Assembly (NCBI RefSeq): GCF_016860525.1
Contig: NZ_BNEA01000015.1
Span: 3,658,001 to 3,722,000, forward strand
DNA from: Streptomyces rubradiris
GTDB taxonomy: Bacteria; Actinomycetota; Actinomycetes; Streptomycetales; Streptomycetaceae
DNA length: 64,000 nucleotides
Reading direction: 5' to 3'
Part shown: positions 19,853-25,947 of the stretch, piece by piece
Layout of the letters: every line of letters starts with the position of its first letter
How positions within the stretch are numbered: the first letter of the stretch is position 1
The notes under the pieces: model-generated
Seen by the model: only the letters and a program-made list of their open reading frames with translations
Told to the model about the DNA's origin: nothing
Database searches by the model: none
Program-made: the position numbers and the translations under genes

Positions 19853-21313
19853 CTAGAACGGGAATCCGCTGCGGCCGTGCTGGATCGAGATCCACTTGAC
19901 GGTGGTGAACGCCTCCATCGTGGTCTCGCCGTTGAGGCGGCCGACCCCGGAGTGCTTCTCCCCGCCGAAGGGCACGATCGGTTCGTCGTGGACGGTGCCG
20001 TCGTTCACGTGGAACATGCCGGTGTCGATCCGCTTGGCGAAGGCCACACCGCGCTCGATGTCCCCGGTGTGGACGGCGCCGCTCAGGCCGTACGGGGTGC
20101 CGTTGACGATCCGCACCGCGTCCTCCTCGCCGTCGAACGGGATGAGGAAGACGACCGGGCCGAAGACCTCCTGCTGGAGCAGCGGGGACTCGGCCGGGAC
20201 ACCGGTCAGCACGCTCGGCTCGACCAGGTTGTTCGTCGTGCCGCCGTGCACCAGGGCGGTGGCGCCCTCGGCGATCGCCTGCTCGACGGTCCCGGAGATC
20301 GCGGCGGCCTGCGCGGAGTTGATCATCGGGCCGATCACGGTCTGCGGGTCGCGCGGGTCGCCGGTCTTCAGGCTCCTGACCTTGGCGACGAACTTCTCGG
20401 TGAACTCCTCCTGGACGGAGCGGTCCACCAGGACCCGGTTGGCGGCCATGCAGACCTGGCCCTGGTGCACGAAGCGGCTGAAGACCGCCGCGTCCACCGC
20501 GTAGTCGATGTCGGCGTCGTCCAGCACCACCAGGGCGCTGTTGCCGCCGAGTTCGAGGACCGAGCGCTTGAAGTGCCTGGCGCAGACGGTGGCGACGTGC
20601 CGGCCGACCTTGTCGGAGCCGGTGAAGGAGATCACCTTCGGGACGGGGTGTTCGAGGAACGCGTCACCGATCTCGGCGATGTCGGTCACCAGGACGTTCA
20701 GCAGCCCCCCGGGCAGCCCGGCGTCCTCGAAGATCTTCGCGATCAGGGTGCCGCCGGCGATCGGGGTGTTCTGGTGCGGCTTGAGCACCACGCCGTTGCC
20801 GAGCGCGAGGGCCGGGGCGACCGACTTCAGCGACAGCAGGAAGGGGAAGTTGAAGGGGCTGATCACACCGACGACGCCGACCGGCACCCGGTAGACGCGG
20901 TTCTCCTTGCCGTCGACCGGGGAGGGCAGGATCCTGCCCTCGGGGCGCAGCGCGAGGTGGATCGACTCGCGCAGGAACTCCTTGGCGAGGTGGAGTTCGA
21001 AGGCGGCCTTCACGCGCGTGCCGCCCAGTTCCGCGATGATCAGGTCGGCTATCTCCTGCTCGCGGTCCTCCACCAGCCGCAGCGCGCGCTCGAACACGGC
21101 CCGCCGGGTGTAGGGGTTGGTCTCCGCCCACTCCTTCTGGGCACGGGCGGCGGCCCGGTAGGCCAGGTCCACCTCCTCGACGGTGGCCACGGTGATCGAG
21201 GCCAGCTTCTCGTCGTTGTAGGGGTTGAAGTCGATGACGTCCCAGGAGCCCGTGCCCGGGCGCCACTCGCCGTCGATGTACTGCTGGGCCAGGTCGCTGA
21301 AGTAGGACGACAT
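19853..21313 (-). CDS. NAD(P)-dependent aldehyde dehydrogenase (benzaldehyde/vanillin type)
   Basis: 486 residues. All catalytic elements are present: FNFPF with Asn155, Lys178 in LKPHQNTP, SFTGS, general base Glu254 in ELGGN and nucleophile Cys288 in HQGQVCMAANR, then EVFGPV and PFGGEKHSG. The family oxidises aldehydes, often aromatic, to acids; the equivalent S. coelicolor gene is annotated benzaldehyde dehydrogenase as I recall. ATG 21313 has GAGG six bases upstream; the in-frame TTG at 21325 is less likely. Confidence 0.93.
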   Translation of the reverse strand: MSSYFSDLAQQYIDGEWRPGTGSWDVIDFNPYNDEKLASITVATVEEVDLAYRAAARAQKEWAETNPYTRRAVFERALRLVEDREQEIADLIIAELGGTRVKAAFELHLAKEFLRESIHLALRPEGRILPSPVDGKENRVYRVPVGVVGVISPFNFPFLLSLKSVAPALALGNGVVLKPHQNTPIAGGTLIAKIFEDAGLPGGLLNVLVTDIAEIGDAFLEHPVPKVISFTGSDKVGRHVATVCARHFKRSVLELGGNSALVVLDDADIDYAVDAAVFSRFVHQGQVCMAANRVLVDRSVQEEFTEKFVAKVRSLKTGDPRDPQTVIGPMINSAQAAAISGTVEQAIAEGATALVHGGTTNNLVEPSVLTGVPAESPLLQQEVFGPVVFLIPFDGEEDAVRIVNGTPYGLSGAVHTGDIERGVAFAKRIDTGMFHVNDGTVHDEPIVPFGGEKHSGVGRLNGETTMEAFTTVKWISIQHGRSGFPF

Positions 21314-21408
21314 GTGATCCCTCAATCGCTAGCGGACACCAGATCTACGCCGTGTCTGACAGGACGTCATCGTACTGGTGGGTACAGCGAGTTGAGAGCC
21401 CTCCTGGG

Positions 21409-22269
21409 TCAGGAGAGTTGCAGGAGGCCGCGGAGCAGGTCCCGGCTCTCGTCCGGGCCGGGGCTGTCCTGCTGGAGCTCCTTCAGGGCCTGCTCGTACT
21501 GGGCGACGTCCTCGCGCTTGTCCAGGTACAGGGCGCTGGTCAGCTGCTCCAGGTAGACCACGTCGGACAGGTCGGACTCGGGAAAGCTGAGGATGGTGAA
21601 GGCGCCGCTCTCGCCGGAGTGCCCGCCGAAGCTGAACGGCATGACCTGGAGCCGCACGTTGGGCCGCCCGGAGATGTCGATCAGGTGCTGGAGCTGGCCG
21701 CGCATCACGTCCCGGTCGCCGTAGGGGCGGCGCAGGGCGGCCTCGTCCAAAACGATGTGCAGTTCCGGGGCGTTGTCGGAGAGCAGGTGCCGCTGCCGCT
21801 CCAGGCGCAGGGCGACCCGGCGCTCGATGTCGGCGGCGCTCGCGCCCTTCATGCCGCGCCGGACCACCTCGCGGGCGTAACTCTCGGTCTGGAGCAGGCC
21901 GTGCACGAACTGCACCTCGTAGACCCGGATCAGCGAGGCGGCGCCCTCCAGGCCCACATAGGTGGGGAACCAGCTGGGCAGGACGTCGGTGTAACTGTGC
22001 CACCAGCCCGCCACGTTGGCCTCCCGGGCGAGGGACAGCAGCGACTCGCGCTCCGCTTCGTCGGTGATGCCGTAGAGCGTCAGCAGGTCCTCGACGTCTC
22101 TGGTCTTGAAGCTCACCCGGCCCAGCTCCATCCGGCTGATCTTCGACTCTGAGGCGCGGATCGAGTATCCCGCCGCCTCGCGCGTGATCCCCCGCGCTTC
22201 CCGCAGTCGCCTGAGTTGCGAGCCGAGCAGCATCCGCCGCACCACCGATCCGGGCTCTCCCGCGCTCAC
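21409..22269 (-). CDS. WhiJ-like XRE-family regulator with DUF5753 domain
   Basis: 286 residues. An N-terminal helix-turn-helix (about 16-70: LRRLREARGITREAAGYS, then SESKISRMELG) is followed by a DUF5753 domain (HSYTDVLPSWFPTYVGLEG, PNVRLQVMPFSFGGHSG). Such proteins lead the WhiJ/AbaA-type cassettes of Streptomyces, in which a DUF397 protein is thought to modulate DNA binding. GTG 22269 has GGAGG nine bases upstream. It is divergent from the anti-sigma gene, and the shared spacer carries a duplicated sequence element. Confidence 0.92.
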   Translation of the reverse strand: MSAGEPGSVVRRMLLGSQLRRLREARGITREAAGYSIRASESKISRMELGRVSFKTRDVEDLLTLYGITDEAERESLLSLAREANVAGWWHSYTDVLPSWFPTYVGLEGAASLIRVYEVQFVHGLLQTESYAREVVRRGMKGASAADIERRVALRLERQRHLLSDNAPELHIVLDEAALRRPYGDRDVMRGQLQHLIDISGRPNVRLQVMPFSFGGHSGESGAFTILSFPESDLSDVVYLEQLTSALYLDKREDVAQYEQALKELQQDSPGPDESRDLLRGLLQLS

Positions 22270-22581
22270 TTTCGCCAGCCTCCCCAACCGTCTCTCAGGG
22301 GCCGAAGTCTGCCACTAAAACACTCCGAGCAGTACTCGCACGGTTACGGAAACGGAAAGAGCTCGGCCGTTTCCACCGTGCCCGGACCGGGCCAGAGGTC
22401 CGGACCTCTGGCGGCTTCCCGGGCGAAGTCGGCGGAAAAAATGGCCAAGAAGCGGTACGGGCTGTGCCATTTCGGCCGCGTGCACGTGCATCTGCCCTTG
22501 CATCTGCTCTGCGCATCCGAAACCATGGGTGCCGCGCCACCGCTGCATCGCAACGACCGCGAATTCCCGGGAGTGCCTCGC
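22270..22581. other. Divergent intergenic region of the WhiJ-like cassette
   Basis: 312 bp between the XRE-DUF5753 gene and the anti-sigma gene. It should contain both promoters. The only clear structure is the element at 22479-22510, a near copy of one found upstream of the DUF397 gene. No gene is seen. Confidence 0.7.
22479..22510 (+). promoter_or_regulatory. Cassette element A, upstream of the anti-sigma gene
   Basis: Reads CGTGCACGTGCATCTGC, three variable bases, then TGCATCTGC. It contains the palindrome TGCACGTGCA and a TGCATCTGC direct repeat with 12-bp period. It ends 71 bp before the start codon and matches element B at 26 of 29 positions in the same orientation to its gene. Confidence 0.75.
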
Positions 22582-23076
22582 ATGGGGACGAATGGATCGA
22601 CCATGCTCAAGCCGTTACGGCAGGGCCTTCCGCCGCTGGATCCCGCGGCCGTGTCCGATGCCGCCTCCTGCGCCCTCCCCGCCCGTTACGAGGCGGTGCG
22701 CGAGGCCCGGCGCTTCACCCGCGACACCCTGGGCCGGTGGGACGTCGGCGACCGCTTCGACGACGTGTGCCTCGTCGTCTCCGAACTCGTCACCAACGCC
22801 CTGCGCCACGCCGTGCCGACGGACCCCTGTCCCGCCGACGGCCTCCCGTCCGTGCGGCTGCACCTGATGCGCTGGAGCGAGCGGCTGGTGTGCGCGGTGC
22901 GCGACCCGAGCCACGAGACGCCGGCGCCGAGGGACTCGGACGACTTCTCGGCCGAATCGGGCCGCGGCCTCTTCCTCGTCGACTCCTTCGCCGACAGCTG
23001 GGGCTGGCACCCGCTCGCGGGCACCCTCCACGGCAAGGTGGTCTGGGCGCTGTTCCGGATGCAGCCGGCGGGCTGA
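22582..23076 (+). CDS. Anti-sigma-type ATP-binding (HATPase/RsbW-like) regulator with a TTA codon
   Basis: 164 residues. The GHKL ATPase boxes are visible: N box VSELVTNALRHA, G1 CAVRDPS and G2 SGRGLFLVD. These proteins bind sigma factors or antagonists and can phosphorylate serine. ATG 22582 has GGGAG eight bases upstream; ATG 22603 is a shorter option. Codon 12 is TTA (22615-22617), the rare leucine codon that needs the bldA tRNA, so translation is probably limited to late growth. It stands between the XRE-DUF5753 gene and the DUF397 gene, the usual cassette order. Confidence 0.9.
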   Translation: MGTNGSTMLKPLRQGLPPLDPAAVSDAASCALPARYEAVREARRFTRDTLGRWDVGDRFDDVCLVVSELVTNALRHAVPTDPCPADGLPSVRLHLMRWSERLVCAVRDPSHETPAPRDSDDFSAESGRGLFLVDSFADSWGWHPLAGTLHGKVVWALFRMQPAG

Positions 23077-23158
23077 GTCCCGTTACCGCGCGGGCGCACG
23101 CCCGGTTTCTACGCGCGTACACCCATGGCTCACCGATGCGTGCGCGTGCTGGTGTGAC

Positions 23159-23254
23159 GTGGCCGCGCGTGACGGTCGCCGCGTGGGCAGGCGTGCCGGT
23201 CGCCCTGTGGGCAAGCATGCCGGCCGTCAGGTGGGCGCGCGTGCCATTGTCATA
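23159..23254. repeat. Four tandem 24-bp imperfect repeats
   Basis: Units begin at 23159, 23183, 23207 and 23231, each starting GTGGSC and carrying a GCRTG(C/A)C core near the middle. They lie in the spacer between the convergent anti-sigma and DUF397 genes. Twenty-four bases keep the frame, so one plus-strand frame encodes an eight-residue repeat beginning with Trp, but no start site supports a gene. Confidence 0.75.
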
Positions 23255-23282
23255 TGCACGTGCACGACGGCGAAGGCGGTCG

Positions 23283-23552
23283 TCAGCTCGCGATCAGATG
23301 GTCGAACTCGCCGTCCTTGACCCCGAGGAGCATGGCCTCGATCTCCGCGCGCGTGTAGACGAGCGCCGGCCCGTCCGGGAAGCGCGAGTTGCGCACGGCG
23401 ACATCACCGCCCGGCAGCCGCGCGAACTCCACGCAGGAACCCTGCGAGTTGCTGTGCCTGCTCTTCTGCCAGGCCACTCCGTCCAGCTGCGTGGCAGCCA
23501 TGCCGTTGTACACGTCGTACCCCCCGTACACGCTGTCAACGTCGCGGTCCAC
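23283..23552 (-). CDS. DUF397 (BldB/WhiJ-partner-like) small protein
   Basis: 89 residues. The DUF397 signature is plain: VAWQKSRHSNSQGSCVEFA, then VAVRNSRFPDGPALVYT and a C-terminal acidic helix. DUF397 proteins are small partners of XRE-DUF5753 regulators in Streptomyces developmental cassettes. GTG 23552 has GGGGAG six bases upstream. Upstream lies element B, which matches element A of the anti-sigma gene. Confidence 0.92.
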   Translation of the reverse strand: MDRDVDSVYGGYDVYNGMAATQLDGVAWQKSRHSNSQGSCVEFARLPGGDVAVRNSRFPDGPALVYTRAEIEAMLLGVKDGEFDHLIAS

Positions 23553-23630
23553 AGGTCGCTCCCCGGTGGTGCACTGGCTGGTGTGGCCATAGGTGCTGTG
23601 GTCAACTGACCCGGATCATAACTCTGTTCA

Positions 23631-23662
23631 CGTGCAGATGCATGAGCAGATGCACGTGCACG
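23631..23662 (-). promoter_or_regulatory. Cassette element B, upstream of the DUF397 gene
   Basis: On the minus strand reads CGTGCACGTGCATCTGC, three bases, then TGCATCTGC. It ends 78 bp before the GTG start of the DUF397 gene and is a near copy of element A. A third TGCACGTGCA palindrome is at 23265-23274, just beyond the 3' end of the DUF397 gene. Confidence 0.75.
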
Positions 23663-23997
23663 AGCAGTGCTCCCGTGATTACACCTTTGACGTGTGCTTT
23701 ACCAGAGCTGCTCCGCCGACTGCCCCGGAGCAGGCAGGACATGCCTCGCCCCGCACCGGATGAGACGCGTACCGCACCGCTCATGTTCCCCTGCCCGGCA
23801 ACCGGTCGGCCCGGCGGACTGGCCGGAACGGCGTCCGTCCACCGGAGGGACGGCCTCCGCATGGTGGCGTAGACCCGCCGCCGCGCCGCTACGACAGCGG
23901 GACGCGGGCGCCGGGACACGTGACGGAGATCATCCGGTACCGGTCGGCGTAGCACCCCGGGGCGGTCCGCGACCGGCACCGGCGGCACGGCAAGAGA

Positions 23998-24035
23998 CAG
24001 GCGCCGCCCTACGGGGGAGCGTAGGGCGGCGCCTG
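23998..24035 (-). terminator. Hairpin terminator after rpsR2
   Basis: Perfect 15-bp inverted repeat (23998-24012 and 24021-24035) with an eight-base loop, 16 bp after the rpsR2 stop, ending the zinc-responsive ribosomal operon. Confidence 0.9.
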
Positions 24036-24050
24036 CCTGTGCGGGGGGCT

Positions 24051-24284
24051 TCAGCGGCCGGCGTACGGCAGCAGCGCCATCTCGCGGGCGTTCTTCACGG
24101 CCCGCGCGAGCAGCCGCTGCTGGCGGACGGTGACCGGGGTGACGCGGCGGCTGCGGATCTTGCCGCGGTCGGAGATGAACTTCCGCAGCAGGTCGGTGTC
24201 CTTGTAGTCGATGTAGGTGATCCCGGCCTCGTCCAAGGGGTTGGGGCGGTTGCGGACGGAGGGGCGTTCGCTCTTGCGGGGCAT
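24051..24284 (-). CDS. rpsR2: Ribosomal protein S18, second (cysteine-free) copy
   Basis: 77 residues with the S18 core ([40 protein letters not shown]). There is no cysteine, so it should need no zinc. Its ATG shares one base with the stop of the CobW-like gene (TGATG), so it is translationally coupled. It is the last gene of the rpmG-rpmE-cobW-rpsR group behind a Zur box. Confidence 0.94.
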
Positions 24285-25522
24285 CAGACCTCCAGCAGGG
24301 TGTCGAAGGCGGGCGGGAGCCGGCGCCAGGACTCCCGCCCGGCGGCGTACTCGGCGTCGGTGAGCAGGCAGGACTCCAGCAACCCGGTCAGTCCCTCGCG
24401 GTCGAGGCCGGGCGAGGTGAACACCAGGTGGTTGCAGCGGTCGCCGTGCTCGGGGTGCCAGTCGAGCGCGGCGGCGGCGCGGCGCACCGGCGGCACCAGT
24501 TCCCAGGCCGCGTCCGGCAGCGCGGCGAGCCAGGGGCCCGCGCTCTCCACGCACAGCGCCCCGCCCGCCGCGTCCCAGTGCAGCAGCGAGTCCGGCTTGT
24601 CGGCGAGCCAGAACCGGCCCCGGCTGCGGGCGGCGGCGCAGGTCAGGTCCTCCAGCGCCGCGTACAGCCGCTCCGGGTGGAAGGGCCGGCGGCGGTGCCA
24701 GACCAGGGTGGAGACGCCGTGGTCGTCGGCCTCCTGGGGCAGCAGTGCGCAGGCCGGGTGTTGGGCAGCGGCGGCGGCCTCCACGTCGAAGCCGGCGAGG
24801 GCGGCCCGGGCGAGCGGACCCGGGTCCCCGGCTCCCGGGTCCCCGGCTCCTGGATTCCCGGCGTCCGCGCCGCCCGGGACCGGCCGGGCCGTCGAACGCG
24901 GCCGCGCCGGCGGCCCTCCGTCCCCGGCGGGCGCGTCGATCGGCACCCGGCGGGCCGTCGGGTGCAGCTGCGCCAGCAGCTCCATGTCCTCGTCGTCGGC
25001 CTCCGGGGAGTCGGCCAGGGCGAGCACGGGGGCGTATTCCAGCTGGCGGGCGAAGGTGTCGGCGACCGTGCGCCGGTCGGTGGCCGCCGCGGCGAGCCCG
25101 GCCTCGGCGAGGTCGTCGCCGTTGCCCAGGTACGGCAGCACCAGCGCCGGGTCCACGGCCGTGATCACGGACGTGACGGTCAGCCCGCCGGAGGCGATCA
25201 CCTCGGCCATCGCCTTCGGCTCGACCGAGTCCCACAGTTCGACGATCGCCAGCCGGGTGGTCGCCGCGTCGGCCAGCCGCCGCAGTTCGGGCACCAGGTC
25301 CTCGCGCAGCGCGCAGCAGGCGCAGTCGTTGACCAGAGGCGTCTCGCCGCGCGACACGATGCCGTCGCGGTCCCGGACGGTCCGCGCGACCCGGCCGGCG
25401 GGGGCCGTGGAGAGGTCGTGGTGCAGGACGACGCTCCCGGGCACGTCGGCGAGCAGCCGGTCGACGGCCGCCGTGCGGGCCGCGGCGTGCAGCCCGCCGA
25501 CGACGGCCACGGCCAGGCTCAC
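24284..25522 (-). CDS. CobW/Zng1-family metal GTPase homologue with a degenerate P-loop
   Basis: 412 residues. The family features present are the metal motif CACC in [13 protein letters not shown] (about 95-105), the [15 protein letters not shown] segment and the C-terminal CobW_C domain ([17 protein letters not shown] to the [12 protein letters not shown] stretch). The Walker A site, normally GxxxxGKT, reads GGLHAAART at about residues 9-17 and lacks the Lys, so GTP hydrolysis in the usual manner is doubtful. It overlaps rpmE2 upstream by four bases and rpsR2 downstream by one base. The context points to zinc allocation during starvation. Confidence 0.88.
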
Positions 25523-25773
25523 GCCCTGCCCCGCTTCCCGAACCGGCGCTCGAAGCGCTCGACGCGTCCGGCGGTGTCCAGCACGCGCGCGGTGCCGGTG
25601 TAGAAGGGGTGGCTGACGTTCGAGATCTCGACGTCCACGACCGGGTAGGTGTTGCCGTCCTCCCACTCCACCGTCTTGTCGCTCGTCATCGTCGACCGGG
25701 TGAGGAAGGCGTGGCCGGCGGCGCGGTCGCGGAAGACGACCGGTCCGTAGGCGGGGTGGATTCCCTTGCGCAT
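25519..25773 (-). CDS. rpmE2: Ribosomal protein L31 type B
   Basis: 84 residues with the L31 type B pattern ([44 protein letters not shown]). It has no cysteines, unlike the zinc-binding L31, and replaces it under zinc limitation in Streptomyces and Bacillus. It overlaps the CobW-like gene by four bases. Confidence 0.95.
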
Positions 25774-25782
25774 GGCGGGGGT

Positions 25783-25947
25783 TCAGCGCTCCTCTCGGAA
25801 GTCGACGTGCCGGCCGGCGACGGGGTCGTACTTGCGCAGCGTCAGACGGTCCGGGTCGTTGCGGCGGTTCTTGCGGGTCACGTAGGTGTAGCCGGTCCCG
25901 GCGGTGGACCGGAGTTTGATGACCGGGCGCAGCTCGTTGCGTGGCAT
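25783..25947 (-). CDS. rpmG: Ribosomal protein L33, cysteine-free copy
   Basis: 54 residues: [20 protein letters not shown], then [20 protein letters not shown] and a short tail. The CxxC pairs of the zinc form are absent. It is the first gene of the leftward operon, ten bases before rpmE2, and its start lies 13 bp from the Zur box. Confidence 0.94.

Follow-up and report, generated by a model that had tools for sequence, protein, structure and literature searches.

A phased TGC(A) array before two genes of a WhiJ-like cassette in Streptomyces rubradiris is a candidate operator of the cassette's own regulator

Which protein reads a DNA element that stands, almost unchanged, before two oppositely directed genes of one cassette? 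The question is raised by a WhiJ-like cassette of Streptomyces rubradiris, found in a stretch of 64,000 nucleotides (contig NZ_BNEA01000015.1, positions 3,658,001 to 3,722,000; hereafter the window, whose numbering we use) of a 9.05-Mb genome. The cassette holds a regulator with XRE and DUF5753 domains (21409–22269, minus strand), an AbaA-like, anti-sigma-like gene of the HATPase type (22582–23076, plus strand; hereafter the ATPase gene) and a BldB-like DUF397 gene (23283–23513, minus strand). A preliminary description of this DNA had proposed the element as the operator of the regulator. Comparison with related genomes supports it as a candidate for that role: within the genus, the element stands before the ATPase gene at all 60 loci and before the DUF397 gene at all 59 that could be read, and it travels with the regulator ortholog and its recognition helix. 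From the sequence evidence we judge it probable that the cassette's XRE-DUF5753 regulator uses both copies as operators, phased arrays that lie over the −35 positions of two promoters that it would control.

Results

The element is present as CGTGCACGTGCATCTGCCCTTGCATCTGC at 22479–22507 (plus strand), before the ATPase gene, and as CGTGCACGTGCATCTGCTCATGCATCTGC at 23662–23634 (minus strand), before the DUF397 gene. The two copies differ at two of 29 positions, so that the repeat first reported is real, with 27 matches rather than the 26 claimed, and each copy faces the gene that it precedes, in the same gene-relative orientation, as had been described. A chance match had been called unlikely; in 100 first-order Markov shuffles of the region 22288–23700 the best inverted pair of 29-mers reached 22 matches (mean 20.3), which rules out a chance origin of the repeat. 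Both copies contain the decamer TGCACGTGCA and, twice at a 12-bp period, TGCATCTGC. The palindrome and the direct repeat previously listed as separate features are both there, but together they form one array phased at 6 and 12 bp, with the consensus TGCACG TGCATC TGCnnn TGCATC TGC. The reported spacing of about 71–81 bp to the start codons holds with ATG 22582 (74 bp) and with GTG 23552 (81 bp), although for the DUF397 gene GTG 23513, behind GGGGGG, looks the likelier start. The longer form TGCACGTGCATCTGCNCNTGCAT, with up to three mismatches allowed, matches only at the two copies in the whole genome, and its reversed control matched once.

Is the element kept where the cassette is kept? The DNA of 22287–23680 was matched in all 61 genus genomes, weakly in one (G001), which was left out; the 60 genus loci analysed are the window and 59 fetched loci, with the start codons of relatives extrapolated from tblastn matches. 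Relatives of the regulator and of the ATPase are present in all 60 and a DUF397 relative in 59, the remaining locus (L079) stopping at a contig end. Sought at these orthologous cassettes, where its absence would speak against an operator, the element was found before the ATPase gene of every locus (25–29 matches in 29; 30 loci, the window included, are identical over 29 bp) and before the DUF397 gene of every readable one (21–28 matches). The remaining intergenic sequence is mostly poorly conserved; other conserved blocks adjoin both gene starts. Of 392 genus genomes, 387 contain an exact 15-mer core, TGCACGTGCATCTGC, usually with one copy on each strand; its reversed control gave 3 matches. 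This core precedes the ATPase gene in 57 of the 60 loci and the DUF397 gene in 42 of the 59. We scored arrays by their hexads (maximum 20), with a score designed after the first loci had been inspected; the null, first-order Markov shuffles, reached 15 or more in 0.7% of 3100 cases. The five genus genomes that lack the 15-mer carry the ortholog, the helix and variant arrays at the same cassette, scoring 17 to 18.

Some other candidates near the arrays fared less well. The third TGCACGTGCA lies at 23255–23264 (no strand assigned) and not, as first placed, at 23265–23274; close to the 3′ terminus of the DUF397 gene, it is a doubtful member of the system and is not supported as a conserved operator, being kept in the matching interval of 7 of 59 loci, six of them mutually similar. 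Nor did the decamer serve as a genome-wide motif, with 18 sites in the genome and 20 for its reversed control. An RNA element was also set aside: no Rfam family reached its gathering score in 21300–24300, and the inferred starts come only after the array. A separate block, AGTGGCAGACTTC (22303–22315), which lies in the intergenic DNA towards the regulator gene, keeps at least 12 of 13 positions in 28 of the 60 loci and may belong to the promoter or leader of the regulator gene itself.

The arrays are periodic and sit in a fixed register. The putative operator before the ATPase gene spans 22479–22510 (plus strand) and reads TGCACG TGCATC TGCCCT TGCATC TGCTCT from 22481; that before the DUF397 gene spans 23625–23662 (minus strand) and reads TGCACG TGCATC TGCTCA TGCATC TGCACG TGAACA from 23660 downwards. 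Autocorrelation at lags 6, 12 and 18 was 0.48, 0.59 and 0.49 before the ATPase gene and 0.54, 0.65 and 0.60 before the DUF397 gene, compared with 0.23 to 0.27 after column permutation, the 12-bp step being the strongest in the real arrays. Position and conservation suggest a promoter at each gene: for the ATPase gene at 22498–22526 (plus strand), with TTGCAT (22498–22503), 17 nt and AACCAT (22521–22526), and for the DUF397 gene at 23615–23643 (minus strand), with ATGCAT (23643–23638), 17 nt and TATGAT (23620–23615). Upstream of the ATPase gene, the fourth TGCA is followed at 22 nt by AACCAT, AACGAT or AAGCAT at 58 of 60 loci; upstream of the DUF397 gene, it is followed by TATGAT at exactly the same distance at 52 of 59. 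At the other seven DUF397 loci the distance is 23 (three), 24, 35, 47 and 58 nt, the last three (L059, L074 and L084) corresponding to about one, two and three extra 12-bp units. Given this distance and the 17-nt spacer, the fourth array unit would occupy the place of the −35. No sigma70-type consensus promoter was called at either gene, and neither −35 is near consensus.

An array over the −35 could act in either direction. The same regulator at the same sites might repress both promoters by covering the −35, with the DUF397 protein lifting the repression, and we regard this as a real possibility, though short of an even chance. It agrees with the place of the array, with the model of WhiJ and SCO4542, in which repression is lifted by the DUF397 partner (PMC4255298, PMC6262351), and with the apparent, about twofold, repression by WhiJ9 of its own gene (PMC10294661). 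However, with a consensus −35 in neither promoter, a site at a fixed distance above the −10 fits an activator as well, and WhiJ9 of S. venezuelae, which binds direct repeats beside iosA, is needed for iosA activation (PMC10294661). We consider activation the likelier sign of control because of the weak −35, the fixed geometry and this WhiJ9 precedent.

The helix of the regulator accompanies the array. The core of its recognition helix, SESKISR, is present in all 60 genus loci and in all five genus loci without the 15-mer; it recurs in 28 of 30 loci of the family with the 15-mer, in 28 of 30 without it and in 30 of 30 loci of other families. Regulator orthologs outside the genus are 51 to 73% identical (partial matches included). 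An array score of at least 15 was found in 60 of 60 genus loci, in 5 of 5 genus loci lacking the 15-mer, in 30 of 30 family loci with it and in 29 of 30 family loci without it. When other genomes of the family were searched with the 15-mer only, 34 of 80 matched, and all 30 loci inspected from these adjoin relatives of the regulator, the ATPase and DUF397. Among the 30 family genomes without the 15-mer, 29 have a close ortholog, all with arrays scoring 15 to 19; the best match in the thirtieth (L285) is a 42% paralog, with an array score of 13. An example from another genus (g7, L172) reads TGCACG TGCACA TGCACG TGCAGA TGCACG TGC before its DUF397 gene. Where DUF397 was matched in the family (59 loci), the TGCA nearest to TAT[CG]AT is 22 nt away in 18, 10 or 11 nt in 19 and elsewhere in 4, and the hexamer was not found in the other 18. 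In the other families, the 19 of 30 loci that scored below 15 were widened, which brought out TGCACGTGCA upstream of DUF397 in 15 and upstream of the regulator in one; the other three comprise one with a masked core base and two on contigs ending too early. At two loci (L213 and L214) the array precedes DUF397, the regulator gene comes next on the same strand, and an ATPase relative, looked for at the locus, was not found.

The genome itself offers a comparison, with 24 DUF5753 matches, the cassette regulator included. SESKISR is absent from all 15 paralogs with a readable helix, and no array was found before the 23 other DUF5753 genes, whose upstream 510 nt scored 10–13 as against 18 at the cassette. 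With the regions upstream of the paralogs' ATPase and DUF397 relatives added, 21 of 22 scored loci stay below 15. A search at the 23 paralogs for periodic arrays of other sequence gave isolated matches at three (L240, L242 and L243). Taken together, the co-conservation of helix and array and the uniqueness of the element point to the cassette's own regulator as the predicted binder.

Three further observations concern DUF5753 relatives. A 9-bp direct repeat, TGTCTCGGC, stands upstream of another DUF5753 gene (L243, C15:3377496-3378029), and a partial DUF5753 match with an internal TAG stop (L255, C15:916045-916398) is likely a decayed WhiJ-like gene. A second type of relative, with the helix GSHAKISRLELGR, adjoins DUF397 and ATPase relatives at three loci (L184, L190 and L321), two of which have the 15-mer.

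Several points weigh against assigning the arrays to this regulator. The assignment is a prediction from sequence, and the genus loci are related rather than independent. In other families the arrays score at least 15 at just 11 of 30 loci, and the hexad pattern is degenerate in the 16 widened loci that hold the TGCACGTGCA core. At class level, outside the genus, the 15-mer was present in 16 of 268 genomes and the reversed control gave 14 matches; with about as many control matches, this count is uninformative. Of the 15 class-level loci inspected, six have no cassette and look like chance, and nine adjoin DUF397 and regulator relatives; the sixteenth match (G709) lies about 470 bp from a regulator relative. 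In the genome itself, eight of the 23 paralogs gave no complete helix for comparison (one partial, six unaligned, one with no match), and one of the 22 scored paralog loci does reach 15, at a place upstream of its DUF397 gene that lies within coding DNA. The helix reads GSHAKISR at two loci with the 15-mer (L184 and L190) and ASHPKISR at one array locus (L284); the tie between helix and array is thus not strict, and some change is tolerated.

The three loci that retain an array despite a helix unlike SESKISR would also suit a second explanation, that another protein reads the element and the cassette regulator is merely its neighbour; binding by the regulator is, after all, a sequence-based prediction. 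However, since the genome has the long element nowhere but at the two copies described, whatever reads it should serve this one locus, and the element travels with the XRE gene into other families, even where no ATPase relative was found; we therefore think another binder unlikely. Less probable still is that the conserved block is simply a promoter read by a single sigma factor, without any separate operator. In its favour, the spacing to the −10-like hexamer is fixed, and at SCO3424 and SCO3423 of S. coelicolor sigmaE has been reported (PMC6767563, PMC10771440). Against it, the block begins 40 bp above that hexamer, at three loci the two are about 12, 24 or 36 bp further apart, the core lies about 170–480 bp from the DUF397 match in one family, and the −10-like hexamers differ between the genes (AACCAT versus TATGAT).

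The genes themselves have the features of a WhiJ/AbaA/BldB cassette, with the regulator, its DUF397 neighbour and its HATPase neighbour all present. The regulator start was read from the sequence as GTG 22269, behind GGGGAGG; the longest listed open reading frame begins at TTG 22287, and its translation matches the Pfam families HTH_31 (57.7 bits) and DUF5753 (199.5 bits), both over the cut-off. Its nearest named relative among the matches listed is from Streptomyces achromogenes (99% identity), and a search by sequence for solved structures gave none at E 0.1. The ATPase gene, read as starting at ATG 22582 with GGGAG at 22569–22573, matches HATPase_c_2 with 53.8 bits (translation from ATG 22603). 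It has a TTA codon at 22615–22617, codon 12 from ATG 22582, which is found at the matching place in 52 of the 60 genus loci. For the DUF397 gene, whose start was read from the sequence and taken as GTG 23513, the longer listed frame from GTG 23552 gives 68 bits with Pfam DUF397.

Downstream, between the cassette and the following genes, an inverted repeat at 23995–24038, whose 19-nt arms are 95% complementary and enclose a 6-nt loop, resembles a strong terminator. The open reading frames listed in 24051–25947 resemble ribosomal proteins S18, L31 and L33 and a CobW-like protein, a set that we take to be a zinc-related cluster.

Discussion

The arrays, their phasing, position and conservation and the helix that accompanies them can be read directly from the DNA, and they suggest how the cassette may work. 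Half-sites of the form TGC(A) recur at 6-bp intervals, most strongly at the 12-bp step, and would overlie the −35 of a weak promoter. The regulator would occupy such an array co-operatively, side by side and probably as dimers, and would meet RNA polymerase at the −35. One regulator would in this way act at two promoters, that of the AbaA-like, anti-sigma-like gene and that of the BldB-like DUF397 gene, and the DUF397 protein may feed back on the regulator. Translation of TTA codons depends on the bldA tRNA; with its TTA codon, synthesis of the anti-sigma-like protein should need this tRNA, which would tie its production to bldA. Among SCO3423 orthologs, 12 of 14 have a TTA codon (PMC4255298).

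How does this compare with what has been described? The cassette type is known, as is the binding of direct repeats by a WhiJ paralog. In the WhiJ9-iosA-bldB9 locus, as here, a WhiJ-like regulator adjoins a BldB-like gene, and the site consists of direct repeats in the intergenic region before a neighbouring target, several repeats raising binding (PMC10294661). Direct repeats are likewise found here, with TGCATCTGC at a 12-bp period and periodicity at lags 6 and 12. The WhiJ9 repeats, however, read CGXXCTCAAC, lie 113 bp above the iosA start site and have measured binding (PMC10294661), and iosA is not AbaA-like, whereas the present cassette, known from its sequence, has TGC(A) every 6 bp over a putative −35 and before two genes. 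CGXXCTCAAC does not occur in the array, and a triple CTCAAC pattern has no match in the S. rubradiris genome. A WhiJ9-like repeat pattern matched in 25 of 101 genus genomes, where control matches were also common, and one of 20 fetched loci (L324) adjoins XRE and ATPase relatives, from which nothing general can be learnt. In that locus (genome G022, near 1501), three CTCAAC repeats with a 10-bp period stand between another XRE relative and an ATPase relative, perhaps as the private array of another WhiJ-like cassette.

The SCO3421-SCO3423-SCO3424 locus of S. coelicolor, with a gene order that we assume to match that of the cassette, is its probable ortholog, judged from this order and from published descriptions; the SCO4677 locus, our first candidate, was set aside after literature comparison. 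SCO3424 has been called similar to AbaA and BldB (PMC6767563), although we found no description of an operator in the accessible literature on the locus. The WhiJ cluster of S. coelicolor (SCO4543, with SCO4542 and SCO4544) has the same three kinds of gene, with the DUF397 partner genetically upstream of the regulator; it is found in few streptomycetes (PMC4255298, PMC6262351), in contrast to the presence of our cassette in 61 of 61 genus genomes. Scr1/Scr2 (SCO4441/SCO4442) and fourteen further XRE-DUF397 pairs also join an XRE-DUF5753 protein to a DUF397 partner and affect antibiotic production or differentiation, but they are different paralogs, and a binding site was not found in the accessible parts of their descriptions (PMC6262351, PMC10364602). 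None of fourteen such pairs was reported to behave as a type II toxin-antitoxin system, in which the XRE protein would neutralise a toxic DUF397 partner, and SCO3421 is absent from the S. coelicolor list of such pairs (PMC10364602).

The array and its 15-mer were not found described in the literature searched, which left most subscription papers outside. The decamer did turn up in 21 papers, and judging by title the 20 listed among them seem unrelated. Relative to that literature, the predicted operator of this paralog appears to be new, as do the phasing of its hexads, its presence before two genes, its register with the −10 and its co-conservation with the helix. The targets of WhiJ were not known at the time of a 2013 review (PMC4255298), and the biochemical function of BldB has been called unknown (PMC10294661). 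A wider scheme is tentative, and we think it on the whole somewhat unlikely: WhiJ-family regulators might be co-operative oligomers on phased arrays of half-sites, with units on alternate helix faces every 6 bp, each paralog having a private array set by its recognition helix; the cassette might be ancient and kept across actinobacterial families, its pair of arrays balancing the anti-sigma-like against the BldB-like protein, and, if DUF397 proteins mix with BldB, array occupancy might be coupled to development.

The pattern of the site is spelled out, its candidate binder and two targets are named, and the promoter geometry is fixed, which makes this widespread WhiJ-like cassette simple to test at the bench, and with it a poorly understood developmental switch becomes easily testable. 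If helix and site correspond as predicted, other WhiJ paralogs may be matched to their sites through the recognition helix.
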